NCBI RefSeq assembly: GCF_018388445.1
Contig: NZ_CP074405.1
Location: 744,001-808,000, forward strand
From: Cellulomonas wangleii
Lineage (GTDB): Bacteria > Actinomycetota > Actinomycetes > Actinomycetales > Cellulomonadaceae
Direction of reading: 5' to 3'
Length of the DNA: 64,000 nt
Positions within the stretch are counted from its first letter, which is position 1, and every line of letters starts with the position of its first letter. The notes under the pieces are model-generated. The model worked only from the letters and a program-made list of their open reading frames with translations, was not told the DNA's origin and searched no databases. This document shows positions 23,393 to 40,805 of the stretch, piece by piece. The position numbers were made by a program, and so were the translations under genes.

Positions 23393-23426
23393 CGCGGGCC
23401 GTTCACCCGCGCGGGCCGTTCACCCG
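23393..23426. repeat. 17-base tandem repeat, two exact copies, overlapping the ureD1 stop codon
   Basis: CGCGGGCCGTTCACCCG occurs at 23393-23409 and again at 23410-23426. On the minus strand the second copy contains the TGA stop of the gene ending at 23420, so the repeat duplicates the gene's terminal codons and stop. Confidence 0.85.
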
Positions 23427-24220
23427 CGGCGGTGCGCCACCTCGTGCCGGTCCGGCTCCGACGGCCGGGTGCGTCCCGGCGTCGCGGGTCGCGGGCGGAC
23501 CTGCCGGGTCCCGGCCCACGACCCATGGCCGGGCACCGACGAGGCGACGCCCACGGCCGCCGTCAGCGCGCCCGCCAGGCGCGCGTCGGACGACGGCGGT
23601 CCCACCGCGCGGAGCATCGTGCCCTCACCCTCCAGCTGCAGCGCGCCCGGCAGGTCGAGCCGGGCGCCCAGCAGCAGCAGGGTGTCCAGACGGCGTCCGC
23701 CGTCCGCGAGCAGGGGGTCCAGCGCCGGCGCCGGCTCCAGCACGACCGTCTCCGCCAGGAGCGGCTGCTCCGCCAGCCGTGCCCGCACGGTGCTGCGCAC
23801 CCGGCCCGCCCGCTCCCCGGGCCGGCCGAGCACGAGGGTCTCGCGCAGCACCACCCGGGCGCCGGGCGCCAGGTCCACGTGCGTGAGCCGCAGGACGTCG
23901 GCACCGTCGGCGACGAGGAACGGCAGGCTCGGCCACAGCAGGACCGCGTCGGCGCCGAGGCGCACGTCGACCAGCCACGTGGCCCGGCCGCCGGCCATGT
24001 CGTGCGCCGCCGCGCCCGTGAGCTCGACGAGCTCGAGGGACCTGCCGGGCGCGACGTCGACCTCGATGCGGACGTCGTCCCGGGCGTCGAGCGGCCCGGT
24101 GGGGCCGAGGAGCGCCACGCGCACCCGGCCGTGCTCGTCGGCGAGCCGGCGCGCGCGGGCGACGTCGCCACCCACCTCGACGTCGCCGTCGGCCGTGACG
24201 ACGACCCGGGTGCGCGTCAC
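23420..24220 (-). CDS. ureD: urease accessory protein UreD/UreH family, distal paralogue (UreD1)
   Basis: UreD is the scaffold that binds apo-urease with UreF and UreG and forms a tunnel for nickel delivery. The 266-residue protein has the family run VELTGAAAHDMAGG, LLWPSLPFLVADGADV and LRETLVLGRPGERAG, and pairs residue by residue with the UreD copy just upstream. After about residue 225 it has a divergent basic tail rich in Arg and Pro. It starts with GTG at 24220, the first start in frame, 103 bases after the other copy. As the last gene of the urease operon it is more diverged and may be a specialised or decaying copy. Confidence 0.75.
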   Translation of the reverse strand: MTRTRVVVTADGDVEVGGDVARARRLADEHGRVRVALLGPTGPLDARDDVRIEVDVAPGRSLELVELTGAAAHDMAGGRATWLVDVRLGADAVLLWPSLPFLVADGADVLRLTHVDLAPGARVVLRETLVLGRPGERAGRVRSTVRARLAEQPLLAETVVLEPAPALDPLLADGGRRLDTLLLLGARLDLPGALQLEGEGTMLRAVGPPSSDARLAGALTAAVGVASSVPGHGSWAGTRQVRPRPATPGRTRPSEPDRHEVAHRRG

Positions 24221-25135: not shown

Positions 25136-25915
25136 TCAGCGGACCGGCTGCTCGTCGCCGAGCGGGTGCGCGTGGCCGTGGTCGTGCTCGTGCTCGTGGC
25201 TGTGGACGGTGACGTGGCCGTCCTCGTCCGCGTGGCTGTGCGGGGCCATCGGGCCGGGGTCGACGGGGGTGTGCCGGCCCTCGCGGACGGCCGCCGTCAT
25301 GTGGCGCACCCAGTCGGTGAGCGCCCCCACGGAGGTCGCGTCGTGGCGGGACAGCCCGATCACGGGCCCGCCGTCGCGCGCCGCCGACGCGTCGCGCAGC
25401 ATCCGCTCGACGTCGACCTCGACGTACGGGGCGAGGTCCGTCTTGTTGACCACCAGCAGGTCGGCGCGTGCGATGCCGGGGCCGCCCTTGCGGGCGACGT
25501 CGCCGCCGCCGGCCACGTCGAGCACGAAGATCTGCGCGTCGACCAGCGCGGGGGAGAACGTCGCGGTGAGGTTGTCGCCGCCGGACTCGACCAGGACGAG
25601 GTCGAGCGGGCCGTGGTCGTGCTCGAGGTCCTCGACCGCGATGAGGTTGGGGGTGACGTCGTCGCGGATCGCGGTGTGCGGGCAGGCCCCGGTCTCGACG
25701 GCGCGGATCCGGTCGATCTCCAGCACGCCCGCCGCGCGCAGGATCTGCGCGTCCTCGTCGGTGTAGATGTCGTTGGTCACCACGCCCATCTCGATCTCGT
25801 CGGCGAGCTCGCGGCACAGCAGCGCGATGAGCGACGTCTTGCCGGTGCCGACGGGCCCCGCGACGCCCAGCCGGAACGCGCGGGCCGGGGTGGTGGGGGT
25901 GACGGGCTCAGCCAT
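25136..25915 (-). CDS. ureG: urease accessory GTPase UreG with a histidine-rich C-terminal tail
   Basis: UreG is the SIMIBI GTPase whose GTP hydrolysis drives nickel insertion. The 259-residue protein has the P-loop [14 protein letters not shown] (about 17-30), the nickel-binding [13 protein letters not shown] (Cys-Pro-His), ESGGDNL, and NKTDLAPYV. Core UreG ends near residue 215. Beyond it lies an extra tail with 10 His between residues 226 and 250 mixed with Asp and Glu. UreG His-stretches are usually N-terminal, so this is unusual. No ureE is present, and the tail may store or relay nickel in its place. ATG at 25915 overlaps the ureF end by eight bases. Confidence 0.95.
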
Positions 25916-26671: not shown

Positions 26672-28375
<1,704 letters not shown>

Positions 28376-28714
28376 CTACAGCGCACCCCCGTCGGTCTTG
28401 CCGCGCTGCAGGCCGGGCACGCGCCGCGCCCCGCGGATCGCCACGGCGTCGACGCTCCGCGACGCGCCCGGCTCGAACCGTTGCGACGTCCCCGACGGGA
28501 CGTCAAGCCGGAAACCGTGGGCGGCGGCACGGTCGAACGCGAGCGCCGCGTTGGCGTCCGGCAGGTGCAGGTGCGACCCGATCTGCACGGGACGGTCGCC
28601 GGTGTTCTCGACGACGAGCGTGAGCCGCTCGGCGGGGGTGCGGTCGCCGTTGAGCACGACCGTGCCCTCGCGCGTGCGGACGGCGCCGGGGCCGTCGGCG
28701 GACGTGCCTGACAT
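28376..28714 (-). CDS. ureB: urease beta subunit UreB
   Basis: UreB is the small structural subunit that buttresses the UreC flap. The 112-residue protein shows VLNGDRTPAERLTLVVENTG and the conserved QIGSHLHLPDANAALAFDR, then FRLDVPSGTSQRFEPG. The length is typical for a separate beta subunit. The start ATG at 28714 has AGGAC-type spacing after a 34-base gap from ureA, and the stop is directly followed by ureC. Confidence 0.95.
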   Translation of the reverse strand: MSGTSADGPGAVRTREGTVVLNGDRTPAERLTLVVENTGDRPVQIGSHLHLPDANAALAFDRAAAHGFRLDVPSGTSQRFEPGASRSVDAVAIRGARRVPGLQRGKTDGGAL

Positions 28715-28748: not shown

Positions 28749-29051
28749 TCAGGCGATGGGGTCGTGCAGCGTGACGAGCTTGCGACCGTCGGGGAAGGTC
28801 GCCTCGACCTGGACGTCGCGCAGCATCTCCGGGACCCCGGGCATCACCTGGTCGCGGCTCAGCACCGACCGGCCGTCCGCCATCAGCTGCGGGACGCCGA
28901 CGCCGTCGCGCGCCCGCTCGATCACCCACGTGCTCAGCAGCGCGACCGCCTCGGGGTGGTTCAGCAGGACGCCACGCGCCAGCCGGTCGCGCGCGACCAT
29001 GCCGGCGACGGCCAGCAGCAGCTTCTCGGAGTCGGCGGGGGTGAGCCTCAT
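28749..29051 (-). CDS. ureA: urease gamma subunit UreA
   Basis: UreA is the smallest urease subunit. The 100-residue protein begins [17 protein letters not shown], the family start, with [20 protein letters not shown] in the middle and LVTLHDP at the end. An upstream in-frame start (29075) would add eight residues with no family support, so ATG 29051 is chosen. A TAGGGT box ends eight bases before it, suggesting a leaderless or near-leaderless message. It heads the urease operon, divergent from urtA. Confidence 0.95.
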
Positions 29052-29073: not shown

Positions 29074-29100
29074 ACCGGCCTGTATGCGCCCCGGTATACG
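29074..29100. promoter_or_regulatory. candidate GntR-type operator pair upstream of ureA
   Basis: ACCGGCCTGTATGCGCC at 29074-29090 differs by one base from a sequence before urtA (29331-29347). A second palindrome GTATAC lies at 29094-29099, twelve bases from GTATGC at 29082. FadR-type GntR proteins often bind palindromes of the TGTATACA kind, and such a gene lies in this island. Confidence 0.5.
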
Positions 29101-29103
29101 CAT

Positions 29104-29119
29104 GAAACGCGATGTTTAC
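29104..29119. promoter_or_regulatory. candidate GlnR box upstream of ureA
   Basis: GAAAC (29104-29108) and TTTAC (29115-29119) are 11 bases apart, the register of alternating GlnR half-sites (GAAAC and GTNAC with six-base spacers; one mismatch here). GlnR is the nitrogen regulator of urea genes in related actinobacteria. Confidence 0.4.
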
Positions 29120-29261
29120 AGGACCGGTCGCCGAGGGTGCGTCCTCGGCGCCGGCGGGCTCGGGCGCGGGACCGGCCTCCCCGGTCCTGGCCGCGTCGAC
29201 CCGACCGACGGGCAGCCTCCTCGACCGGCCGACGAACGGTTGACCGCGCCCTCAGCAGCGC

Positions 29262-29300
29262 GAAACCAACTGTTTACGCCCCGGGCCCGATCCGAGAAAC
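29262..29300. promoter_or_regulatory. candidate GlnR box upstream of urtA
   Basis: GAAAC at 29262-29266 and TTTAC at 29273-29277 repeat the 11-base register seen near ureA. A further GAAAC at 29296-29300 begins 15 bases before the TAGCGT -10, exactly as GAAAC does before the urea carboxylase -10. Confidence 0.4.
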
Positions 29301-29310
29301 ACGGCCTCTC

Positions 29311-29347
29311 TAGCGTCCTCGGCCATGGGCACCGGCCTGTATACGCC
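29311..29347 (+). promoter_or_regulatory. urtA promoter -10 and overlapping candidate operator
   Basis: TAGCGT at 29311-29316 fits TANNNT. About 23 bases after it lies ACCGGCCTGTATACGCC (29331-29347) with the perfect palindrome GTATAC at 29339-29344. The operator would lie just inside the transcript, suited to repression. The leader to the TTG start of urtA is about 110 bases. Confidence 0.45.
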
Positions 29348-29432
29348 GCGGGACACAGCGCGGTGGCGCGCGGCGGGTCGGCGCCCGGGCCCGGCATCGT
29401 CCGTCAGCTCGTCCTGATCGAAAGGCACCCCG

Positions 29433-30719
29433 TTGACCACTCACCCCCTCCCCCCGCGGACGGCCCGGAAGCGCGCGCTCGTCGTCTCGGCGGCCGCGCT
29501 CGCGGCCGCCCTGACCCTCTCGGCCTGCGGCGGCGCCCGCACCGCCGAGGGTGCGACCGGCACGGCGTCGGCCTCCGGTGGCGCGTCGTGCGTCGACACG
29601 TCCGGCGACACCGTGAAGATCGGGTTCCTCAACTCGCTGTCCGGCACCATGGCCATCTCCGAGCAGACGGTCCGCGACTCCCTCGACCTCGCCGCGGAGG
29701 AGATCAACGAGGCCGGCGGCGTGCTCGGCAAGCAGCTCGAGATCGTCGCCGAGGACGGCGCGTCCGAGCCCACCGTCTTCGCCGAGAAGGCCGAGAAGCT
29801 CATCTCGTCCGACTGCGTCGCCGCGGTCTTCGGCGGCTGGACGTCGTCGTCGCGCAAGGCGATGCTGCCGGTCTTCGAGTCGAAGAACTCGCTGCTGTTC
29901 TACCCGGTCCAGTACGAGGGCCTCGAGGCGTCGCCGAACATCTTCTACACCGGCGCGACGACGAACCAGCAGATCATCCCCGGCATGGACTACCTGGCCG
30001 AGCAGGGCAAGAAGAAGGTCTTCCTCGTCGGGTCGGACTACGTCTTCCCCCGCACGGCGAACAAGATCATCAACGCCTACGCCGAGGCCAACGGCATCGA
30101 GATCGTCGGCGAGGAGTACGCGCCGCTCGGGCACACCGACTTCGCGACGATCGTCAACAAGCTGAAGGCGTCCGGCGCGGACGCGGTGTTCAACACCCTC
30201 AACGGTGACTCCAACGTCGCGTTCTTCAAGGAGTACAAGAACGTCGGCCTGACCGCGGACGCCGTCCCGGTCGTCTCGGTGTCGATCGCCGAGGAGGAGG
30301 TCGGCGGCATCGGCGTCGACAACATCGTCGGACAGCTCACGGCCTGGAACTACTACCAGACGGTCGAGTCGCCCACGAACGAGACCTTCGTCGCCGCGTT
30401 CAAGGAGAAGTACGGCGAGGACCGTCCGACGTCCGACCCGATGGAGGCCGCGTACACGTCGCTGTACCTGTGGAAGGGCATGGTCGAGAAGGCCGAGTCC
30501 TTCGAGGTCGCGGACATCCAGGAGGCGGCCGACGGCGTGACGTTCGACGCCCCCGAGGGCACCGTCACCGTGAACGGCGACAACCACCACATCGCCAAGA
30601 CGGCGTACATCGGCAAGATCGACGCCGACGGCCTGATCTACCCCGTGTGGGAGTCCGACGGCCCGATCGAGCCGGACCCGTTCCTCGAGGGCTACGACTG
30701 GGCCGAGGGCCTGTCCTGA
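29433..30719 (+). CDS. urtA: urea ABC transporter substrate-binding lipoprotein UrtA
   Basis: UrtA captures urea outside the membrane for the UrtBCDE importer. The 428-residue protein has a lipoprotein signal (ALTLSAC, Cys at about residue 31), then the type I periplasmic-binding fold with [37 protein letters not shown] and [20 protein letters not shown], which are UrtA hallmarks. TTG at 29433 follows GAAAGG and is the only start that gives a full signal peptide. It is followed by a long hairpin before urtB, so this protein is probably made in excess over the membrane parts. Confidence 0.95.
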
Positions 30720-30752
30720 CCCTCGTCCTGCACGCCAGGACGCATCCCTGAC

Positions 30753-30795
30753 GCGGGTGGCCCGGTCCGGGCCCACGGCCGACCGGGCCACCCGC
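30753..30795 (+). terminator. strong intercistronic hairpin between urtA and urtB
   Basis: A perfect 15-pair stem: 30753-30767 pairs with 30781-30795 across a 13-base loop. There is no T-run. Such stems after binding-protein genes commonly protect the upstream message or stop part of transcription, giving more binding protein than permease. Confidence 0.65.
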
Positions 30796-30832
30796 GGGGG
30801 ACGTCGAACCACCCCACGGAAGGCGGCGCCGC

Positions 30833-31717
30833 ATGGACGCCCTGTTCTCCCAGCTCTTCGCGGGCCTGAGCCTCGGCTCGGTGCTGCTGCTCGCGGCGCT
30901 CGGCCTGGCCCTGACGTTCGGTCAGATGGGCGTCATCAACATGGCGCACGGCGAGTTCATGATGGCCGGCGCGTACACGGCGTTCGTCCTGCAGGCGTTC
31001 ATCCCCGACGCGGGGGTGTCGCTGCTGGTGGCCCTGCCCGTCGGCTTCGTCGTCGGCGGCCTGCTCGGCCTGCTGCTGGAGGTCACGCTGATCTCCCGGA
31101 TGTACCGCCGACCACTGGACACGCTCCTGGTCACGTTCGGTGTCGCGCTGGTGCTGCAGCAGCTCGCGCGTGATGTCTTCGGCGCCCCGAACGTCGACGT
31201 GCGTGCCCCGGCGTGGCTGTCCGGCGCGGTGCCGTTCCTCGGCATGAACCTGCCGAAGACCCGGCTGTTCATCCTCGCGCTGGCGATCGCCTGCGTCATC
31301 GCCCTCTCGCTGGTGCTCAAGATGACGTCGCTCGGCCGGCGGATCCGCGCGACGGTCCAGAACCGCGACCTGGCCGAGACGTCCGGCGTCTCGACGCGCG
31401 CCACCGACCGGCTCACCTTCTTCGTCGGCTCCGGGGTCGCCGGGGTCGCGGGCGTCGCGCTGACCCTGCTCGGGTCGATCGGCCCGACGCTGGGCACCAA
31501 CTACATCGTCGACGCGTTCCTCGTGGTCGTCGTCGGCGGCATCGGGCAGCTCAAGGGGGCCGTCATCGCGGCGTTCTCGCTGGGCATCCTGCAGGCGACC
31601 TTCGAGTACTCCACGACCGCGAGCCTGGCCAAGGTGCTGCTGTTCGTCGTCATCGTCGCGTTCCTGCAGGTCCGGCCGCAGGGCCTGGTCTCGGTCCGGA
31701 CGAGGAGCCTGGCGTGA
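30833..31717 (+). CDS. urtB: urea ABC transporter permease UrtB
   Basis: One of two membrane subunits of the urea importer. The 294-residue protein is of the LivH type, with about eight spans and the signatures LGLALTFGQMGVINMAHGEF near the N terminus, RPLDTLLVTFGVALVLQQ, and FLVVVVGGIGQLKGAVIAA. It ends RPQGLVSVRTRSLA. The ATG at 30833 has GGAAGG upstream. The stop overlaps urtC by four bases. Sequence features fit UrtB rather than a branched-chain amino acid permease because of the neighbouring urtA. Confidence 0.93.
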   Translation: MDALFSQLFAGLSLGSVLLLAALGLALTFGQMGVINMAHGEFMMAGAYTAFVLQAFIPDAGVSLLVALPVGFVVGGLLGLLLEVTLISRMYRRPLDTLLVTFGVALVLQQLARDVFGAPNVDVRAPAWLSGAVPFLGMNLPKTRLFILALAIACVIALSLVLKMTSLGRRIRATVQNRDLAETSGVSTRATDRLTFFVGSGVAGVAGVALTLLGSIGPTLGTNYIVDAFLVVVVGGIGQLKGAVIAAFSLGILQATFEYSTTASLAKVLLFVVIVAFLQVRPQGLVSVRTRSLA

Positions 31718-32916
31718 GCGCCCCGCGGTCCACGACCTCCCCGGCCGCCCTGTGGCGCCGGCCCGCCCTGCGCGTGTGGATCGGCGTCGCCGTCGCCGCG
31801 GTCGTCCTGTTCGGCCTGGCCCCCGCGGTGCTGTCGGACTTCCGCCTCAACCTGCTCGCCAAGTTCCTGTGCCTGGCGATGGTCGCGGTCGGCATCGGCC
31901 TGGCGTGGGGGCGCGGCGGCATGCTCGTGCTCGGTCAGGGCGTGTTCTTCGGCATCGGCGGCTACCTCATGGCGATGCACATGAAGCTGTCGGACGCCGG
32001 CCCGGGCGGGGTCCCGGACTTCATGCTCCTGTACGGCGACGGGGTCGTGCCCGGCTGGTGGGAGCCGTTCCGCAGCCCGCTGGTCACCGTCCTGGCGATC
32101 CTGCTGCTGCCCGCCGCGGTCGCCACGCTGCTCGGTCTGGCGGTCTTCCGCCGGCGGGTGCGCGGCGCGTACTTCGCGATCCTGTCCCAGGCGCTCGCGG
32201 CGGCGTTCGCGATCCTGCTGGTCGGCCAGCAGAAGGTCACCGGTGGGACCAACGGGCTCAACGGCTTCCGGTCGTTCTTCGGCTACGACCTGGCCGACCC
32301 GATCAACAAGCGGATGCTGTACTTCATCGCCGCGGGCGTGCTCATCGCCATGGTCGTCGTCGTGCGGCTGCTCATGGTGTCCCGCTACGGCGAGCTGCTG
32401 GTCGCGGTGCGCGACCAGGAGAACCGGGTCCGGTTCCTCGGCTACGACCCCGCGAACGTCAAGGTCGTCGCCTACGCGATCGCCGCGTGCTTCGCCGGCA
32501 TCGGCGGGGCGCTGTTCGCGCCGGTCGTGGGCATCATCTCGCCGGCCGACGTGGGCGTGATCCCGTCCATCGGGTTCCTCGTCGGCGTCGCGATCGGCGG
32601 CCGGGCGACGCTGCTGGGCCCGGTGCTCGGCGCGGTCGCGGTGTCCTGGGCCGAGACCGGGCTGTCCGAGCAGTTCCCGTCCTTCTGGACCTACTTCCAG
32701 GGGGCGCTGTTCATCCTCGTCGTCGCGTTCCTGCCGCAGGGCTTCGCGTCCCTGGGCGGGCTGTGGCGCCGGCGCCGGGCCGTCGGTGACGCGGCGCCCG
32801 GCGAGCCGCCGACGCACCCCGGACCGACCGACGCCGCGCCGGACCGCACGACCGGGGACGACGGCGCCGACGCGACACCGGCCGACGCCGCGCCCACCGC
32901 AGGGAGGAACGCATGA
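31714..32916 (+). CDS. urtC: urea ABC transporter permease UrtC
   Basis: The second membrane subunit, LivM type. The 400-residue protein has about ten spans and the UrtC patterns GRGGMLVLGQGVFFGIGGYLMAMH (read in parts), RRRVRGAYFAILSQALAAAF, VTGGTNGLNGFRSFFGYDL and IPSIGFLVGVAIGGRATLLG. A Pro/Asp/Ala-rich cytoplasmic tail of about 50 residues follows LPQGFASLGGLW. It starts with GTG at 31714, overlapping urtB; long upstream frames lie inside urtB. The stop overlaps urtD. Confidence 0.93.
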   Translation: MSAPRSTTSPAALWRRPALRVWIGVAVAAVVLFGLAPAVLSDFRLNLLAKFLCLAMVAVGIGLAWGRGGMLVLGQGVFFGIGGYLMAMHMKLSDAGPGGVPDFMLLYGDGVVPGWWEPFRSPLVTVLAILLLPAAVATLLGLAVFRRRVRGAYFAILSQALAAAFAILLVGQQKVTGGTNGLNGFRSFFGYDLADPINKRMLYFIAAGVLIAMVVVVRLLMVSRYGELLVAVRDQENRVRFLGYDPANVKVVAYAIAACFAGIGGALFAPVVGIISPADVGVIPSIGFLVGVAIGGRATLLGPVLGAVAVSWAETGLSEQFPSFWTYFQGALFILVVAFLPQGFASLGGLWRRRRAVGDAAPGEPPTHPGPTDAAPDRTTGDDGADATPADAAPTAGRNA

Positions 32917-33812
32917 GCCCGCACCCCGAGAGCGTCGACCCGGTCGTCCCCGAGGACGTCGGCGGACTGGACCCCGAGGCCCTCGAGCAGGTCCTCGCGG
33001 CGCCGGGCGAGCGGTTCCGGCACGACTACCTGGAGATCCGCGACCTGCGCGTGGTGTTCGACGGGTTCGTGGCCGTCGACGGCGTGGACCTCACGGTCAC
33101 CCGCGGCGACCTGCGGTTCCTCATCGGCCCCAACGGCGCCGGCAAGACGACGATCGTCGACGCGATCACCGGGCTCGCACCCGCCACCGGGTCCGTGCAG
33201 TTCGGCCGCGTCGACCTGCTGGGCAAGCCGTCGCACCGGATCGTGCGCGCCGGTGTGGGGCGCACCTTCCAGACCGCGAGCGTCTTCGACGAGCTCACGG
33301 TGCTGCAGAACCTCGACATCGCCGCGGGCGCGGGCCGCCAGCCCCTGACGATGCTGCGCCGCCGGCGCGGCATCCCGCCGGAGGTCGAGGCCGCGCTGGA
33401 GACGGTCGGCCTGACGAAGGTCCGCGACCTGCCCGCCGGGGTGCTCGCGCACGGGCAGAAGCAGTGGCTCGAGATCGGCATGCTCCTGGTCCAGGACGCC
33501 CGCCTGCTGCTGCTCGACGAGCCGGTGGCCGGCATGAGCCAGGCCGAGCGCGAGGAGACCGGGCTGCTGCTGCAGCGCATCGGCGAGCAGCGCACGGTCG
33601 TCGTCGTCGAGCACGACATGGAGTTCCTGCGGGCCTTCGCCGCCTCGGTCACCGTGCTGCACCAGGGCAAGGTCCTGTCCGAGGGCACGGTCGCGCAGGT
33701 GCAGGCCGACCCCCGCGTGGTCGAGGTGTACCTGGGGTCGGGCACGCACGGCCGGGGGCGGGGGACGGCCGCCGCGGCGGCCGCACCCGCCGCGAGCACG
33801 GAGGTGGAGTGA
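32913..33812 (+). CDS. urtD: urea ABC transporter ATP-binding protein UrtD
   Basis: An ATPase of the urea importer. The 299-residue protein has Walker A GPNGAGKTT, Q-loop region GVGRTFQTASVFDELTV, the unusual UrtD signature LAHGQKQWLEIGMLLVQD in place of LSGGQ, Walker B LLLLDEPVAGMS and the H-loop VVVVEHDMEF. A 40-residue N-terminal extension and an Ala-rich C-terminal tail are added to the core. The ATG at 32913 overlaps the urtC stop by four bases. It pairs with UrtE. Confidence 0.94.
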   Translation: MSPHPESVDPVVPEDVGGLDPEALEQVLAAPGERFRHDYLEIRDLRVVFDGFVAVDGVDLTVTRGDLRFLIGPNGAGKTTIVDAITGLAPATGSVQFGRVDLLGKPSHRIVRAGVGRTFQTASVFDELTVLQNLDIAAGAGRQPLTMLRRRRGIPPEVEAALETVGLTKVRDLPAGVLAHGQKQWLEIGMLLVQDARLLLLDEPVAGMSQAEREETGLLLQRIGEQRTVVVVEHDMEFLRAFAASVTVLHQGKVLSEGTVAQVQADPRVVEVYLGSGTHGRGRGTAAAAAAPAASTEVE

Positions 33813-34504
33813 TGCTGGAGCTGCGCGGGCTGCACGTGGGGTACGGCCGCACGGCGGTCGTCCACGGCGTCGACATCGAGGTCCCGGACGGCGCCGTCGT
33901 GGCCGTGATGGGGCACAACGGCGCGGGCAAGACGACGCTCCTGCGGGCGGCGGTCGGGCTGCTGCCCGCCCGCTCCGGCACGGTCCTGCTGGGCGGCGAG
34001 GACGTGACGCGGACGCGACCGCACCAGCGGGTGCGCGCCGGCCTGGCGTACGTGCCCCAGGGGCAGCAGTCGTTCGGGCAGCTCACGGCGCGCGAGAACC
34101 TGCAGCTGGTCGCCGACGTCGCCGGTGCGCAGGGGACCCGGCGGCTCGACGAGGCGCTCGACCTCTTCCCGGCGCTGCGCGGGCTGCTGACGCGGCGCGC
34201 CGGTCTGCTGTCCGGTGGCCAGCGGCAGCAGCTCGCGATCGCCCGGGCGCTCATCACCGGTCCGCGGCTCATCGTGCTCGACGAGCCGACCGAGGGGATC
34301 CAGCCGTCGGTCGTCGCCGAGATCGAGGACGCGATCGTGCAGCTCGCCTCGGGCGGTCTGTCGGTGCTGCTCGTCGAGCAGCACGTCGGGTTCGCCCTCG
34401 CCGCGTCGTCGCACTACTACGTGCTGGAGTCGGGGCGGGTCACCGCGCACGGTGCCGGCGGCGTGGCGCAGGAGGGCGACGTGCGTGCCGCGATGGCGCT
34501 CTGA
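33812..34504 (+). CDS. urtE: urea ABC transporter ATP-binding protein UrtE
   Basis: The second ATPase of the importer, LivF type. The 230-residue protein has Walker A GHNGAGKTTLL, the UrtE-type YVPQGQQSFGQLTARENLQL, signature LLSGGQRQQLAIARAL, Walker B LIVLDEPTEGIQP and the H-loop VLLVEQHVGFA. Length is normal. The ATG overlaps the urtD stop by one base. It is the last transporter gene; the GntR regulator begins 84 bases later in the same direction. Confidence 0.94.
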   Translation: MLELRGLHVGYGRTAVVHGVDIEVPDGAVVAVMGHNGAGKTTLLRAAVGLLPARSGTVLLGGEDVTRTRPHQRVRAGLAYVPQGQQSFGQLTARENLQLVADVAGAQGTRRLDEALDLFPALRGLLTRRAGLLSGGQRQQLAIARALITGPRLIVLDEPTEGIQPSVVAEIEDAIVQLASGGLSVLLVEQHVGFALAASSHYYVLESGRVTAHGAGGVAQEGDVRAAMAL

Positions 34505-34588
34505 GCGCGCCGGTCCCGGCCCGGGTCGACCGGGCGGGGCGACGGTCGTGCGGGGCCGCCGCCGACCACGAGCCAGGGGGTGGGAGTC

Positions 34589-35311
34589 ATGAGCACGTCC
34601 ACGGGTCCGGTCGCGCCGGGTGCCGCCGCGGTGGTCCCTGCCGGCGGCTCGCTGCGCGAGCACGTCTACCAGCGGCTGCGCGACGAGATCCTCAACGGCA
34701 GGGTCTCCCCGCGGGACCGGCTCACCGAGCCCAAGCTGTCCCGGGCGTTCGAGGTGTCCCGGACCCCGGTGCGGGAGGCGCTGTCACGGCTGCTGTCCGA
34801 CGGGCTCGTCGAGCGCACCGACTTCGGGTACGCGGTGGTCGTGCCCTCGCTCGCGTCGCTGCGCGACCTGTACGAGCTGCGGATCACCCTGGAGCTGCGC
34901 GGCATCGCCCGGGCCATCGAGAACCCGCAGGTGCGCCACGACCGGGCGCTGCTGGGCGCCGAGCTCGGACGCTGGCAGGAGCTGCGGGACGTGGTCCCCG
35001 ACCCGGACCCCAGCTTCGTGGTGCTCGACGAGGGCTTCCACCGGGCGCTGTCGCAGGCGTCCGGCAACGCCCAGCTCACCGATGCGCTCGTGACCGTGAA
35101 CCAGAAGATCCGCGCGGTGCGCATGCACGACTTCGTCGAGGACGAGCGCATCACCGCCACCATCGACGAGCACCTGGAGATCCTCGAGCTCGTGCTCGCC
35201 GAGCGCCTCGGCGAGGCGCTGACGGCACTGCACCAGCACGTGGGGGAGTCGTTGGAGGTCGTCATGGAGCGCGCCTCGCACGCGATGGCGCGGATGGCCA
35301 TCACGGGCTGA
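34589..35311 (+). CDS. GntR-family (FadR subfamily, FCD domain) transcriptional regulator
   Basis: A 240-residue regulator with an N-terminal winged helix (LREHVYQRLRDEILNGRVSP, LTEPKLSRAFEVSRTPVREAL) and an all-helical FCD ligand domain containing DLYELRITLELRGIARAI, FHRALSQASGN, and EHLEILELVLAERLGEAL. The His and Asp/Glu positions typical of metal-bound FCD pockets are present. ATG 34589 has GGGAG five bases upstream and is preferred over GTG 34580. It sits between the transporter and urea carboxylase genes and is the obvious candidate to bind the GTATAC elements at the three urea promoters. The ligand (urea, allophanate, nickel or other) is unknown. Confidence 0.9.
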   Translation: MSTSTGPVAPGAAAVVPAGGSLREHVYQRLRDEILNGRVSPRDRLTEPKLSRAFEVSRTPVREALSRLLSDGLVERTDFGYAVVVPSLASLRDLYELRITLELRGIARAIENPQVRHDRALLGAELGRWQELRDVVPDPDPSFVVLDEGFHRALSQASGNAQLTDALVTVNQKIRAVRMHDFVEDERITATIDEHLEILELVLAERLGEALTALHQHVGESLEVVMERASHAMARMAITG

Positions 35312-35321
35312 GGCGGGTGCG

Positions 35322-35780
35322 TCAGGCGAGGACCACCGGACAGTCGTCCTCCCAGATCCGCGCCGCGGTGTCGCGGGCCGGGGGGAGGTCGGGGAACGCC
35401 TGCGACCACGTGTCCTGGATGTCGGCGCGGCGCTCGGCGCCGATCAGGTAGAACCCGAAGTTCACCACGTCGTAGCCCTTGACGTTCTCGCAGATCGCGC
35501 GCGCGCCGTCCCGCACGACGGTCACGTCGAGCGGCACCTCGTCGGGCCACCTGACGGTCACCGTCATCGTGTTGGCGAACCCGTCGAGGTGCGCGCCGAC
35601 GTGCGTCTCGTCGGCGTCCGGCAGCACCTCGGCCACGGCTTCCCGGACGACCTGGGTGATCGCGACGCCGTTCTCGTCGACCGGTGGCCCGAAAGCCTGG
35701 TCGCGCATGGCGCTGCAACCGCCGAGCACGACGGTCAGCGTGAGGGCTGCGGCGAGTGCGGCCACGGGGTGTCGTGCCAT
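35322..35780 (-). CDS. small lipoprotein of unknown function
   Basis: A 152-residue secreted lipoprotein: signal segment [17 protein letters not shown] with the lipobox Cys at about residue 23, then an Ala/Val-rich acidic domain with strands around TMTVTVRWPDEVPLDVTVVRDG and three further Cys. No family is recognised. The ATG at 35780 gives a good signal peptide; a start 26 codons upstream would bury it. It is convergent with the GntR gene (ten bases apart) and divergent from the urea carboxylase, so whether it belongs to urea use is unclear. Confidence 0.7.
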   Translation of the reverse strand: MARHPVAALAAALTLTVVLGGCSAMRDQAFGPPVDENGVAITQVVREAVAEVLPDADETHVGAHLDGFANTMTVTVRWPDEVPLDVTVVRDGARAICENVKGYDVVNFGFYLIGAERRADIQDTWSQAFPDLPPARDTAARIWEDDCPVVLA

Positions 35781-35930
35781 GGGTGTGCGGGTCCTCCGGG
35801 TCGGGTGGTGGGATCGCCCAACGTAGACGGGGGCCGCGCGCAGGTGCGCCGGCGACACCCTGCGCGCACGGGTGAAGCGGGCCTCCGGCTCCGCGCCCCG
35901 CGTCGGGTCCCGCAGCCCTCGCCCACGTGC

Positions 35931-35968
35931 GTAACCCCCCGTTCACACCTGTGCGCCTCCGGGGAAAC
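35931..35968. promoter_or_regulatory. candidate GlnR box upstream of urea carboxylase
   Basis: GTAAC at 35931, TTCAC at 35942 and GAAAC at 35964 fall on one 11-base register (the site at 35953 does not match). This is the half-site periodicity expected for GlnR, and matches the elements at urtA and ureA. Confidence 0.4.
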
Positions 35969-35978
35969 AGGGGCTTCC

Positions 35979-36010
35979 TACGGTCCGGATACCGGCACGT
36001 ATACACCGGC
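35979..36010 (+). promoter_or_regulatory. urea carboxylase promoter -10 and candidate GntR operator
   Basis: TACGGT (35979-35984) is followed by ACCGGCACGTATACACCGGC at 35991-36010, with GTATAC at its centre and ACCGGC flanking on both sides. The palindrome lies at about +8 to +14 of the predicted transcript. Confidence 0.45.
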
Positions 36011-36059
36011 ACGTCGACACACGGCCCGTGTGCACGCGGCCGCCGACCCGAAGGACGCC

Positions 36060-39000
36060 GTGTTCGACACCCTGCTCGTGGCCGACCGCGGCGAGATCGC
36101 CGTGCGCGTCCTGCGCACGGCGGCCCGGCTGGGCCTGCGCACGGTGGCGGTGCACACCGACGTCGACGCCGCCGCGCCGCACGTGCGCCACGCCGACGTC
36201 GCCGTACCCCTCGGCCCCGCCGACGCCTACCGGCACGCCGACGCGATCATCACGGCGGCGAGGGCCGCCGGTGCCGGGGCGGTCCACCCCGGGTACGGGT
36301 TCCTGTCCGAGGACGCGGGCTTCGCCGCGGCGGTCGAGGCGGCCGGGCTGGTGCTCGTCGGCCCGGCACCCGAGCACCTGGCGGTCTTCGGCGACAAGCA
36401 CCGCGCGCGTCGGGCGGCGCGCGCGGCCGGGGTCCCGCTGCTCCCCGGCAGCGGTCTGCTGAGCGACGTCGACGAGGCGCTGGCTGCGGCGGAGCGGCTC
36501 GGCTACCCGGTGATGGTCAAGGCCGTCGGCGGGGGCGGCGGCACCGGGATGCGGGCGTGCGCGACGCCGGCGGACGTGCGGACCGCCTGGGACGGTCTCG
36601 CCCGCCTGCCGGCGGCGCGCGGCGGCGTGCTCGTCGAGCGGCTGGTGCGCCGGGCACGGCACGTCGAGGTGCAGGTGTTCGGCGACGGCGCCGGCCGCGT
36701 CGTGAGCCTGGGGGACCGCGACTGCTCGCTGCAGCGCCGGCACCAGAAGGTGGTCGAGGAGGCCCCGGCGCCGGCGCTCGCCGACGACCTGCGCGAGCGG
36801 CTCGCCACGTGGGCGCGCGCCCTGACCGCGTCGGTCGGGTACCGGTCGGCCGGCACCGTCGAGTACGTCGTCGACGTCGAGCGGGGCCGGGCGGCCTTCC
36901 TCGAGGTGAACGCGCGGCTCCAGGTGGAGCACACCGTCACCGAGGAGGTCACGGGTGTCGACCTCGTCGGCTGGATGCTGCGCCTGGCCCGGGGCGACGC
37001 GGACCTGCGGGCCGAGCTCGCGGCGCTGCCCGACACCGGCCCGCCGCTGCGCGGGCACGCCGTGCAGGCGCGGGTCTACGCCGAGGACCCACGCCGCGGG
37101 CACCGGCCCGGCGCCGGGCGGCTCACGGCCGTGACGTTCCCGGCGGGGGTGCGGGTCGACACCTGGGCGGAGGCCGGGCAGGAGGTCACGACGCACTACG
37201 ACCCGCTGCTCGCCAAGGTCGTCGTGCACGGCGCCGACCGGGTGGCCGCGCTCGACGCCGCCGGTGCCGCGCTCGCGGGCACCGCCGTGCACGGGGTGGC
37301 CACGAACCTGCCGCAGCTGCGGGCGGCCCTCCGGCGCGACGACGTCCGCGCCGCCCGGCACACCACCGGGACCCTGGCCGAGGTCGTCGACGACGAGCCG
37401 TGGGTCGAGGTCGAACGACCCGGCCTGCTGACGACCGTGCAGGACTGGCCGGGCCGCGTGGGGCACTGGGACGTCGGGGTGCCGCCGTCCGGGCCGGTGG
37501 ACGACCTGTCGTTCCGGCTGGGCAACGCCGCGGTCGGCAACCCGGAGGGTGCCGTGGGCCTGGAGTGCACGCTGCAGGGGCCGCGGCTGCGGTTCAGCCA
37601 CGGGGCCGTCGTGTGCGTCACCGGCGCGCCCGCACCCGTGAGCGTGGACGGCGCGGCCGTGCCGCAGTGGGAGCCGGTCGCCGTGCCGGCCGGCGGTGTG
37701 CTCGACGTCGGGACGCCGCCCGGCCCGGGCCTGCGGACGTACGTGCTGGTGCGCGGGGGTCTCGACGCCCCGCGGTACCTGGGCTCGGCGGCGACGTTCG
37801 TGCCCGGGGGGTTCGGCGGGACGACGGGGCGTGCGCTGGTCACCGGGGACGTGCTGACGCCCGCGGACGGTCCCGCGGGGCCGACGGCCGCCGTGCCGCC
37901 GGACCTGCGGCCACGGTTCACGCACGCCTGGGAGCTGGCCGTCCAGGAGGGCCCGCAGCCCGCGCCGACGTACCTGATGCGCGCGGACGTCCGCACGCTG
38001 CACGACGCGACCTGGCGCGTGCAGGCGCACGCCGACCGGGCGGGGGTCCGGCTGACCGGCCCGCGGCTGCGCTGGGCACGGCCCGACGGCGGCGGGGCCG
38101 GTCTGCACCCCTCGAACCTGCACGACAACCCGTACTCGGTGGGGGCGCTCAACCTCTCCGGCGACACCCCCGTGCTGCTGGGGCCGGACGGGCCCTCGCT
38201 CGGCGGGTTCGTGTGCCCGGTCACGGTCGTCTCGGGGCACCGCTGGCGGATCGGGCAGCTGCGCCCCGGGGACACCGTGCGCCTGGTCCCCGTGACGGCC
38301 GCGGCACCCGCCGCGCTGCGCGCCCCCGCGGCGCGGGTGGCCGCGTCCGTGCCCGTGGACCTGCGCGCCGGGCAGGACGACGGCGACGACGGTGTGCTCG
38401 CGCGCGTGCCGCAGGACCCGACGGACCCCGTCGCGCGTCCCGGTCTGGTGTGCCTGCGCGGCGGGGACGACAACGTGCTCGTCGAGTACGGCCCGCCGGT
38501 CCTCGACCTGGGGCTGCGCCTGCGCGTGCACGCGCTGGGCCGGGCGCTGCGGGCGCGGGCGGTGCCCGGCGTCGTCGACGTCACCCCCGGGGTGCGGAGC
38601 CTGCACGTGCACGTCGACCCCGAGCGGCTGCCGCCGGCGCGCCTCGTCGACCTGCTCGTCGAGGTGGACGCGACCCTGCCCCCGACCACCGACATGGTGG
38701 TGCCCTCCCGGCGGGTGCACCTGCCGCTGTCGTTCGAGGACCCCGCCGTGGCGCAGGCCGTCGACCGCTACACCCTGGGGGTGCGGGCGCACGCGCCGTG
38801 GCTGCCGTCCAACATCGAGCTCGTGCGCCGCATGAACGGCCTGGCGGACGCGGACGACGTCCTGGCGACGATGCTCGCCGCCGAGTACCTGGTCCTGGGC
38901 CTGGGCGACGTGTACCTGGGCGCACCGCTGGCCGTGCCCCTCGACCCGCGGCACCGCCTGATGACGACCAAGTACAACCCCGCCCGCACGTGGACCGCCC

Positions 39001-39767
39001 CCGGCACCGTGGGGCTGGGCGGGCAGTACCTGTGCGTGTACGGCATGGACTCGCCCGGCGGGTACCAGCTGGTGGGGCGGACGCTGCCGGTCTGGGCGAC
39101 GCACGGCCCGGGACGCGGCCCGGAGCCCGGCGTGCCGTGGCTGCTGCGGTTCTTCGACCGGGTCGTCTGGGAGCCCGTCGACGCCGCCGAGCTGGCCGCG
39201 CAGCGGGCCGCGTTCGCGGCCGGGCGCCTGGACGTGCGCGTCGAGCAGGGCACCTTCGCGTACCGCGACCACCTGCGGATGCTCGACGAGCACGCCGTGC
39301 AGATCGCCGAGGTCGAGGCGCGGCGGGCCACCGCCTTCGCCGCCGAGCGCGCCGGGTGGGCGGCCGCAGGGGAGCTCGACGCGGACCGCGCGCCGGTGCC
39401 CGCGACGGTCGCGGACCCGTCCCCTGCCTCGCCGTCCGACCTGCCCGACGGCCACCTGCTCGTCGCGGCGCCCATGGTCGGGTCCGTGTGGCGGGTGGCG
39501 GCGGCACCGGGGCAGGACGTGCGGGAGGGTGACCCGCTCGTGGCCCTCGAGGCGATGAAGCTCGAGCTCGTGGTGCCGGCACCGGCCGCCGGCCGGGTGG
39601 TGCGGGTGCTCGTGGAGCCAGGTCAGCAGGTGGCGCCGGGCGCCCCGCTCGCCGTGCTGGCGGTGAGCCCGCGCCCCGACGACACCGTCCGGACGTCCTG
39701 CCGGGACGGACCGGGCCCGACCGCGGGGGACCTCCAGCCGACCCCTGGTTTCCCCACGAGCCCGTGA
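36060..39767 (+). CDS. urea carboxylase (biotin-dependent; 5-oxoprolinase/urea amidolyase family)
   Basis: This 1235-residue enzyme would carboxylate urea to allophanate using ATP, bicarbonate and biotin. Domain order: biotin carboxylase (about 1-440; GYGFLSEDAGFA, KAVGGGGGTGMRA, EVNARLQVEHTVTEEVTG), an AHS2/KipA-like domain (from about 449; RPGLLTTVQDWPG), an AHS1/KipI-like domain (from about 790), and a biotinyl domain with the carrier Lys in EAMKLE (about residue 1167). Start GTG 36060 has AAGGA upstream and directly gives FDTLLVADRGEIAVR; GTG 36030 is an alternative. No allophanate hydrolase gene follows. Some relatives use guanidine instead, but the urea context here argues for urea. Confidence 0.88.
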   Translation: MFDTLLVADRGEIAVRVLRTAARLGLRTVAVHTDVDAAAPHVRHADVAVPLGPADAYRHADAIITAARAAGAGAVHPGYGFLSEDAGFAAAVEAAGLVLVGPAPEHLAVFGDKHRARRAARAAGVPLLPGSGLLSDVDEALAAAERLGYPVMVKAVGGGGGTGMRACATPADVRTAWDGLARLPAARGGVLVERLVRRARHVEVQVFGDGAGRVVSLGDRDCSLQRRHQKVVEEAPAPALADDLRERLATWARALTASVGYRSAGTVEYVVDVERGRAAFLEVNARLQVEHTVTEEVTGVDLVGWMLRLARGDADLRAELAALPDTGPPLRGHAVQARVYAEDPRRGHRPGAGRLTAVTFPAGVRVDTWAEAGQEVTTHYDPLLAKVVVHGADRVAALDAAGAALAGTAVHGVATNLPQLRAALRRDDVRAARHTTGTLAEVVDDEPWVEVERPGLLTTVQDWPGRVGHWDVGVPPSGPVDDLSFRLGNAAVGNPEGAVGLECTLQGPRLRFSHGAVVCVTGAPAPVSVDGAAVPQWEPVAVPAGGVLDVGTPPGPGLRTYVLVRGGLDAPRYLGSAATFVPGGFGGTTGRALVTGDVLTPADGPAGPTAAVPPDLRPRFTHAWELAVQEGPQPAPTYLMRADVRTLHDATWRVQAHADRAGVRLTGPRLRWARPDGGGAGLHPSNLHDNPYSVGALNLSGDTPVLLGPDGPSLGGFVCPVTVVSGHRWRIGQLRPGDTVRLVPVTAAAPAALRAPAARVAASVPVDLRAGQDDGDDGVLARVPQDPTDPVARPGLVCLRGGDDNVLVEYGPPVLDLGLRLRVHALGRALRARAVPGVVDVTPGVRSLHVHVDPERLPPARLVDLLVEVDATLPPTTDMVVPSRRVHLPLSFEDPAVAQAVDRYTLGVRAHAPWLPSNIELVRRMNGLADADDVLATMLAAEYLVLGLGDVYLGAPLAVPLDPRHRLMTTKYNPARTWTAPGTVGLGGQYLCVYGMDSPGGYQLVGRTLPVWATHGPGRGPEPGVPWLLRFFDRVVWEPVDAAELAAQRAAFAAGRLDVRVEQGTFAYRDHLRMLDEHAVQIAEVEARRATAFAAERAGWAAAGELDADRAPVPATVADPSPASPSDLPDGHLLVAAPMVGSVWRVAAAPGQDVREGDPLVALEAMKLELVVPAPAAGRVVRVLVEPGQQVAPGAPLAVLAVSPRPDDTVRTSCRDGPGPTAGDLQPTPGFPTSP

Positions 39768-39827: not shown

Positions 39828-40805
39828 ATGCACGTCCCCGACCAGTTCCTGACCGACCCGACCTCGGCCACCACCGCCGCCGTCGCCGGCACCGCCGTCG
39901 TGGCGGCGGCCCTGCGCGCGCGCCGCGACCGCGCGGGCGGCCCCCACCCGGCTCTCGTCGGCGCCACCACCGCCGCCGTGTTCGGCCTGCAGATGCTCAA
40001 CTACCCGGTGGGCGCCGGCACCAGCGGGCACCTCATGGGCGGTGCGCTGGCCGCCGCGCTGCTGGGCCCCGCGTGGGGCCTGCTGGCGGTGAGCGTCGTG
40101 CTGGTCGTGCAGGCCGTGGCCTTCGCCGACGGCGGTCTGACGGCGCTGGGGACCAGCACGCTGCTCATGGCGGTCGTCGGGACGCTGGTGGGCTGGGCGG
40201 TCGCGCGCGGTGTCGTGGGCGTGGCCCGCCGGCGCGCCCACGACCCCGACGTGCGCGTGCTGGGACCGGTCGCGGCCGCTGCCGGCGGTGCGGCCGGCGT
40301 CGTCGCCGCGGCCGCGGCCTTCGTCGGGCTGTACGCGGTCGGCGGGACGGTCGCGGTGCCGCTGGGCGTGCTCGCGGGGCAGATGCTGGGCGTCCACCTG
40401 CTGATCGGGCTGGGGGAGGCCGTGCTGACCGGCGCGGTCGTCGCGGTCGTCGTCGCGGTCCGGCCGCAGGTCGCGGCGCTGACGGCGCGGGGCGGCCGGC
40501 CCGCGCGGACCGGTGCGCTGCTGCCCGCCGGGCTGCTGACCGGCGTGGCCGGGCTGGCGGCGGTGGCGCTGTCCGCGGTCGCCTCGGCGGCACCCGACGG
40601 GCTCGAGGCCACCGCTGCGCGCACCGGGTTCGCCGGTGCCGCACGCGACCACGCGCTGGCCGGGCTCCCGCTGGCGGACTACGGCGAGGCCGGCGGGCTC
40701 GCCGTCGGAGTCGCGGGGGCGATCGGGGTGGTGGTCTGCCTGGTCGTCGCGGTCGCGCTCGCGGGCGCCGTCGCGCGGCCGCGAGTGGTCGCCGTCGGTC
40801 GCTGA
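39828..40805 (+). CDS. NikM/CbiM-type energy-coupling-factor metal permease, probably nickel, with fused PDGLE domain
   Basis: The 325-residue membrane protein starts MHVPDQFL (family MHIPDGFL; His2 binds the metal) and has GTSGHLMGGALAAALLGP and GQMLGVHLLIGLGEAVLTG, the CbiM/NikM core with about seven spans. A later segment with APDGLEATAARTGF (PDGLE domain, NikN/CbiN-like) and a final span are fused on. ATG 39828 has GAAGGAG upstream. Placed after urea carboxylase and near urease, it most likely brings in nickel for UreC. The T and A components of the ECF transporter are not adjacent and must be encoded elsewhere. Cobalt is the main alternative. Confidence 0.85.
   Translation: MHVPDQFLTDPTSATTAAVAGTAVVAAALRARRDRAGGPHPALVGATTAAVFGLQMLNYPVGAGTSGHLMGGALAAALLGPAWGLLAVSVVLVVQAVAFADGGLTALGTSTLLMAVVGTLVGWAVARGVVGVARRRAHDPDVRVLGPVAAAAGGAAGVVAAAAAFVGLYAVGGTVAVPLGVLAGQMLGVHLLIGLGEAVLTGAVVAVVVAVRPQVAALTARGGRPARTGALLPAGLLTGVAGLAAVALSAVASAAPDGLEATAARTGFAGAARDHALAGLPLADYGEAGGLAVGVAGAIGVVVCLVVAVALAGAVARPRVVAVGR

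Follow-up and report, generated by a model that had tools for sequence, protein, structure and literature searches.

A GTATAC palindrome and a linked GntR/FCD protein mark a putative local urea regulon in Cellulomonas wangleii

RESULTS AND DISCUSSION

Organization of the urea locus

The DNA analyzed here is a stretch of 64,000 nucleotides (nt) of the Cellulomonas wangleii contig NZ_CP074405.1 (positions 744,001 to 808,000), referred to below as the window. It contains a urea locus in which urease genes (ure), the urtABCDE genes for urea uptake, a gene for a GntR-type regulator, and the urea carboxylase gene (uca) lie close together, and in which the palindrome GTATAC precedes ureA, urtA, and uca. 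This palindrome is very probably the binding site of the regulator encoded alongside. The main features are as follows.

28749..29051, reverse strand: ureA, first urease gene (Pfam Urease_gamma, 7.9e-42)
29082..29099, reverse strand: proposed ureA-side operator, with GTATAC (29094-29099) and GTATGC (29082-29087) twelve base pairs (bp) apart
29325..29356, forward strand: proposed urtA operator, centered on GTATAC 29339-29344, just 3' of the predicted transcription start
29433..30719, forward strand: urtA (TIGR03407, 577.9 bits; cut-off, 492.75)
34589..35311, forward strand: GntR/FCD regulator gene, 240 amino acids, last gene after urtABCDE, with GntR and FCD domains
35987..36016, forward strand: proposed uca operator, beginning GGATACCGGCACGTATACACCGGC, with its GTATAC core at 35999
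36060..39767, forward strand: uca, urea carboxylase, 1,235 amino acids (TIGR02712, 1512.7 bits; cut-off, 1303.85)

The palindrome in the window and the genome

An earlier reading of the sequence (the original prediction) had placed GTATAC or GTATGC at 29082, 29094, 29339, and 35999 and no further GTATAC in the window, and a window scan confirmed this. GTATAC was counted three times (29094, 29339, and 35999), compared with a mean of 0.20 and a maximum of 2 in 100 shuffles, and GTATGC was located at 29082 on the ureA side. A recount also agreed with the 16 of 17 identical positions reported for the ureA and urtA copies (29074-29090 and 29331-29347). Across the genome, a single contig of 4,076,825 bases, GTATAC occurred 11 times, while the longer form ACCGGCNNGTATRC was present, with 0 mismatches, only at 29074, 29331, and 35991 (total, 3), that is, in the promoters of ureA, urtA, and uca. 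The possibility that the motif is common away from urea genes had been named as a refuting condition, and the genome search favored the original prediction on this point.

None of the eight other genomic GTATAC sites, all of which were fetched and inspected, was at a recognizable urea gene. Four were in three copies of one repeated segment and in one further segment, read by eye as 23S rRNA and tRNA, and three were within probable coding frames. The eighth, at L192 (G000:C1:3567376; G and L numbers are our handles for genomes and loci), is located 42 bp beyond the limits of a sensor-kinase-like frame; a long frame on the opposite strand was drawn across it as well by the crude caller, and its flanks do not resemble the operator. 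When a less strict 20-base operator pattern was allowed as many as 3 mismatches, it matched 28 genomic places compared with 11 for the reversed control; the urtA, uca, and ureA sites had 0, 1, and 2 mismatches, respectively, and one unrelated place also had 2.

The ACCGGC flanks, originally counted as part of the motif, proved to be lineage-specific and present only in the nearest relatives, and ACCGGC was therefore dropped as a motif component. A pattern scan bearing on these flanks gave at least one exact match in 32 of 150 family genomes (own genome included), and matches at the urt locus, judged by position, were confined to the window genome, G131, and G148.

Promoter architecture

The proposed operators adjoin the following promoter elements.

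29104..29119, no strand assigned: GlnR-like box GAAACGCGATGTTTAC between ureA and urtA, identified from the sequence, adjoining the ureA-side operator
29262..29277, forward strand: GlnR-like box GAAACCAACTGTTTAC of the urtA promoter, identified from the sequence and the published 5-n6-5 layout
29296..29316, forward strand: urtA promoter, GAAACA (-35 region) and TAGCGT (-10), from aligned promoters
35931..35984, forward strand: uca promoter, with GlnR-like box GTAACCCCCCGTTCAC (35931-35946), GAAACA (35964), and -10 TACGGT (35979-35984)

Upstream of both urtA and uca, the order is a GlnR-like box, then usually GAAACA, and then a -10 element (TAGCGT, TACGGT, etc.). A box of the same form, GAAACCCAACGTTTAC, precedes the single ammonium transporter gene that was detected in this genome (L296). 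The 5-n6-5 layout of GlnR boxes was found upstream of the promoter at urtA, at uca, and at the ammonium transporter gene. On the ureA side, the box GAAACGCGATGTTTAC is reversed relative to ureA, and an AC-n9-AC test in the ureA direction did not match it. As the urtA and uca promoters carry GlnR-like boxes too, the regulon cannot be called self-contained, as had been proposed.

The aligned sites share the core (T)GTATAC(A), and those of urtA and uca have an outer left half-site, GG(A/G)(T/C)AC, about 12 bp from it. The uca sites and some urtA sites are near-symmetric (e.g., GGATACCGGGGTGTATACACCCC and GGGCACAGGTACGTATACAGACCTGTACCC), while those upstream of urtA in Cellulomonas show partial symmetry only. 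The offset from GAAACA to -10 was 15 in all 25 aligned urtA promoters, and relative to a point 8 nt past the -10, GTATAC started at +14 nt in 17/25, at +26 nt in 7/25, and at +12 nt in 1/25. The site was 3' of the -10 in 25/25 aligned urtA promoters and, by eye, in 16/16 family uca promoters. Assuming that transcription begins some 8 nt 3' of the -10, the core would be centered near +17 (17/25) or +29 (7/25) at urtA and near +9 at the uca of the window.

A leaderless upstream open reading frame for a conserved leader peptide at urtA was also considered, as ATG or GTG occurs 8 nt after the -10 in 23/25 promoters with GTATAC in one frame. As a conserved peptide it was rejected: L068 has lost the start codon, L171 is not in register, L176 has a stop before the operator, and the lengths and sequences 3' of the operator differ.

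Co-occurrence of site and regulator at urtA

Among the 150 family genomes, a match to the regulator (E value threshold, 1e-30) was found in 43, of which 30 hold an orthologue of at least 61% identity. The other 13 genomes, together with second matches in G038 and G055 (both within the 30), form a subgroup of 50 to 59% identity. In the group with at least 61% identity, urtABCDE lay 5' of the regulator in 22/23 fetched loci (18 to 20 kb), the exception being G020.

UrtA matches were detected in 48/150 family genomes. GTATAC was present within about 100 bp of urtA at 29/30 loci of regulator genomes and at 0/18 loci of genomes without an orthologue (Fisher P = 2.6e-12, a statistic that ignores shared ancestry). 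The former count combines 26/27 loci from one survey with three (G078, G106, and G023) that were inspected separately; among the 18 controls, G082 holds only the atzF-linked subgroup protein. The single miss was again G020, where a distant urtA (56 to 59% identical) lies away from the regulator; in this genome, no urt genes are close to the regulator, and the promoter-operator unit stands in front of atzF. The proposed search of related genomes for the motif supported the expected link between palindrome and regulator.

In 13/18 loci without the regulator (e.g., L224, L229, L235, and L233), the urtA start region is covered by another palindrome, (A/G)GGTTCAnnTGAACC, which is visible only in part for two of them, G048 and G123, because the printed sequence stops within it. 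No convincing linked regulator for (A/G)GGTTCAnnTGAACC was found in eight control regions inspected. A MarR-like frame (by eye) is located near urtA-like genes in two control regions, L268 and L275.

The ureA-side site

In the window, the ureA-side operator is 31 to 43 bp upstream of the ureA start codon. GTATAC was found 39 to 40 bp before the ureA of the regulator's urt region in 14/14 further genomes, G148 has both GTATAC and GTATGC, and in G131 GTATAC occupies the same position. With the window, ureA adjoining the regulator's urt locus was accompanied by GTATAC in 17/17 genomes tested; in G106, a contig break separates the ure and urt genes, and the region upstream of ureA in G144 stands outside this count. 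GTATAC was found at 0/6 other ureases (two each in G038 and G069, the second of the window genome, and that of G020, which adjoins the distant urtA of that genome). In G127, ureA is directly 3' of uca. The site is not simply ureA's own, as had been assumed, since the same site faces an aminotransferase gene in L068 (Cellulomonas sp. B6) and L163 (G115).

The UreA of the second urease of the window genome (G000:C1:1932274-1933983) shares 48% identity with that of the first; the 400 bp upstream contain no GTATAC and no match to the GAAACA-N9-TAnnnT pattern.

The uca site and lone urea carboxylase genes

The original prediction that one palindrome marks all three urea promoters holds for the window, but the uca copy is less constant in other genomes. 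In regulator genomes with a linked uca and an atzF match, GTATAC preceded uca in 11/11 cases (the atzF match of G148 is below the curated cut-off, and atzF of G055 is elsewhere in the genome), whereas with a linked uca and no atzF match it was present in 3/12 and absent in 9/12. These 12 of the 30 regulator genomes (no atzF match at 1e-80) are the window genome, G131, G127, G144, G049, G065, G118, G142, G124, G112, G098, and G134. Urease was present in 12/12 of them and in 3 of the 11 with an atzF match. On inspection by eye, the best matches to the atzF model in the window genome looked like GatA, a further amidase, and the tail of a permease. At L183 (G000:C1:1575774), the end of a permease-like frame (by eye) matches the allophanate hydrolase model over its C-terminal part.

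The biotin motif AMKLE was retained in 21/21 aligned uca proteins, lone ones included. Seven lone uca rows (six genomes, as L064 and L170 are apparently the same assembly) had 27 to 76 changes at 549 positions that are invariant in ten atzF-linked uca. When the atzF-linked proteins were left out one at a time, eight family members showed 0 to 9 changes, and two from outside the family showed 36 and 67. G148 showed 22. The ratio of nonsynonymous to synonymous substitution rates (dN/dS) was 0.29, 0.22, and 0.19 in three lone pairs, 0.29 and 0.27 in two G148 pairs, and 0.13 and 0.11 in two atzF-containing pairs. We take this pattern in lone uca to reflect a relaxation of constraint and not a new role.

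Wider distribution and an atzF-linked sister group

At the class level, a regulator match at or below 1e-30 was obtained in 42/394 genomes, own genome included. Among the further class loci fetched (L239-L267), GTATAC was no more than about 430 bp away from the start of the regulator in 27/29, often 14 nt after an ATG. Neighbors recognized in the short class loci were uca, atzF, and urtDE or another ATP-binding cassette (ABC) ATPase, with several loci too short to judge. In Nocardia loci with urtABCDE and the regulator, GTATAC was upstream of urtA in 4/4.

The subgroup of 50 to 59% identity precedes atzF in 15/15 fetched family loci (L143-L157), often with an ABC transporter, and GTATAC was found at the regulator start in 9/15. 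By eye, this transporter resembles nitrate/sulfonate systems (L143-L157, also L070 and L072). The substrate of this sister group is perhaps a ureido compound.

The regulator protein

The original assignment of the gene at 34589 to the GntR/FadR type was upheld, as both the GntR domain (PF00392; 66.6 bits, 1.5e-18) and the FCD domain (PF07729; 65.9 bits, 6e-18) scored above their cut-offs. The protein belongs to the FCD (FadR-like) group of the GntR superfamily, with an N-terminal GntR winged helix-turn-helix (wHTH), a C-terminal FCD domain, and a fold match to FCD structures. A structure model (predicted local distance difference test score, 86.7) had PmiR, TM0439, and VanR-type proteins among its best PDB folds. 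Residues E102, D147, H151, E194, H195, and H217 were invariant among 23 orthologues (alignment A1). These three His with their Asp/Glu partners correspond to the metal-site residues described for TM0439 and HypR, as judged from a profile alignment to TM0439 and from PMC6608401. Conservation of these residues suggests that the FCD domain probably holds a metal site. No named NCBIfam GntR family passed its cut-off (0/16 listed), the best being TIGR03338 (phnR_burk) with 74 bits against 271.5. As a GntR/FCD protein, the regulator is not of the AmtR type, AmtR being a member of the TetR family with its different fold.

Proposed regulation and alternative explanations

We consider it likely that GTATAC is the operator core of the GntR/FCD protein encoded at 34589-35311 and that this protein is a repressor that acts locally on urea uptake and breakdown, layered on GlnR-type activation. 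GlnR-type boxes would mark the urea promoters for activation under nitrogen shortage. At urtA and uca, the operator lies just 3' of the predicted transcription start, so that a bound repressor would block RNA polymerase; at ureA, it lies 31 to 43 bp 5' of the start codon, alongside the GlnR-like box. A small molecule of the urea pathway, either urea or its carboxylated product allophanate, would release the repressor and would probably be held at the FCD metal site. Output would then require two conditions, nitrogen shortage and the presence of urea. As the regulator gene is 3' of urtABCDE, the protein would also repress itself via the urtA operator. From the original prediction, a local urea regulon with a local GntR/FCD regulator, a shared palindrome, and co-occurrence across genomes thus remains, while its self-contained nature does not.

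Several observations weigh against this interpretation. Genome counts are not independent because of shared ancestry, and for one of the controls, G146, the genome is 83% complete. Symmetry outside the core varies, and the right arm of the Cellulomonas urtA site, GGGACAC, is not a mirror image. The uca site is missing in G131 and in eight genus g8 genomes without an atzF match. L246 and L247 have no GTATAC near the regulator, nor do 6/15 atzF-linked family loci (L143, L146, L147, L154, L156, and L157). In Umezawaea (L067), where uca is the first gene of a uca-atzF-urt-regulator run, GTATAC precedes uca and none precedes urtA. Furthermore, 5/30 regulator genomes (G069, G078, G129, G106, and G007) have no uca or atzF match, an observation that speaks against allophanate being the sole effector.

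Some FCD proteins need a ligand for good binding and then activate (CitO; PMC6608401), and the ureA-side site may be upstream of the start, next to the GlnR-like box. The same protein could accordingly bind its sites as a urea-dependent activator, or as both activator and repressor. However, the location 3' of the predicted -10 at urtA and uca is a poor position for an activator; because of the site's place, repression is favored and activation appears unlikely. It is most improbable that GTATAC is instead the site of another factor or a promoter part (e.g., a start-region element of GlnR promoters) and that its nearness to the GntR gene reflects hitch-hiking. The fixed distance from GTATAC to the -10 in many genomes would fit a promoter element, but GTATAC is missing at 18/18 urtA loci without the regulator although 5/18 retain the GAAACA-N9-TAnnnT promoter, and class-level homologues carry the same core beside uca, atzF, or other genes.

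As effectors of the proposed repressor, both urea and allophanate are possible. The presence of uca or atzF beside many homologues, together with the metal-FCD site, points to allophanate, while the five regulator genomes without a match for either enzyme point to urea. That allophanate is the sole effector, with uca kept in the absence of atzF as the inducer-making enzyme for the urease pathway, is very unlikely. Such a role would suit the 12/30 regulator genomes with a linked uca, no atzF match, and urease, as well as the biotin motif retained in the aligned lone genes; allophanate is a named inducer of yeast allantoin and urea genes (PMC4589623), and some metal-FCD proteins bind carboxylates (citrate and D-galactonate). 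It is weakened by the five genomes without uca or atzF, by operators missing at 9/12 lone uca genes, and by the apparently lower constraint on these genes (dN/dS, 0.19 to 0.29, versus 0.11 to 0.13 in atzF-containing pairs). More tentatively, and with rather more doubt than confidence, we suggest that a metal-site GntR/FCD protein senses a ureido compound directly, urea in urt-only genomes and allophanate in atzF-linked ones, with one operator family reused for uptake, urease, uca, and atzF across Actinomycetes in an AND gate with GlnR.

Neighboring genes

The remaining genes of the locus are as follows.

23420-24220, reverse strand: ureD (UreD match)
25136-25915, reverse strand: ureG-like (cobW domain)
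26672-28375, reverse strand: ureC (TIGR01792, above cut-off)
28376-28714, reverse strand: ureB, named from position and size only
30833-34504, forward strand: urtB to urtE, named by position and reading without a family-library run; order conserved
Between the regulator gene and uca, opposite strand: small lipoprotein-like frame with no Pfam match
39828..40805, forward strand: CbiM-type nickel/cobalt uptake component with a PDGLE domain (Pfam CbiM, 8.9e-44; PDGLE, 1.8e-7), 60 bp 3' of uca

The CbiM-type gene is probably in one operon with uca. No CbiQ- or CbiO-like product was detected among the neighboring frames scanned around it. In the sister genome G148 (L161, 11111-12985), a sodium-symporter-like transporter frame (by eye) is located between the regulator and uca.

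Comparison with known systems

Urea use in actinobacteria has been described via GlnR and AmtR (PMC4222082, PMC10704036). AmtR of Mycobacterium smegmatis likewise regulates an actinobacterial operon that encodes urea carboxylase and an amidase, and it does so in bacteria that possess GlnR as well. However, that operon contains an amino acid permease and unknown frames rather than urtABCDE plus a regulator, and AmtR binding was unaffected by urea (PMC4222082). The boxes at urtA and the ammonium transporter gene (GAAAC-n6-TTTAC) and at uca (GTAAC-n6-TTCAC) share the 5-n6-5 layout of actinomycete GlnR boxes, but their letters deviate from the tabulated species-specific forms (PMC10704036). No GntR-type urea regulator with a GTATAC site was recognized in the open-access literature, which was mostly surveyed at listing level, with subscription literature mostly outside the survey.

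The closest solved structure, by both sequence profile (3.7e-20) and fold, is PmiR of Pseudomonas aeruginosa (PDB 7xp0 and 7xp1), which is 28% identical and comes from a different organism group. The best fold matches also include TM0439 and VanR, with 20 to 24% identity in the fold alignments. TM0439 and HypR share with the protein described here the wHTH and FCD domains, matching Asp, Glu, and His metal-site residues, and control of catabolism (PMC6608401), and CitO, DgoR, and VanR/Atu1419 are grouped with them as metal-FCD GntR catabolic regulators. The named proteins respond to other substrates than the urea system described here, and the motif quoted for HypR, TACAATGTCAC, is unlike the GTATAC operator (PMC6608401).

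Overall, a real urea regulon is well supported by genome comparison, while GntR/FCD catabolic regulators are already known as a kind. Its interest lies in the AND-gate layout with GlnR, in the natural controls offered by urtA loci of regulator-less genomes, which lack the site, and in an effector question that is testable. If correct, the proposed scheme would add to GlnR and AmtR a local regulator with a predictable operator over urea uptake, both urea-degrading routes, and perhaps nickel uptake.

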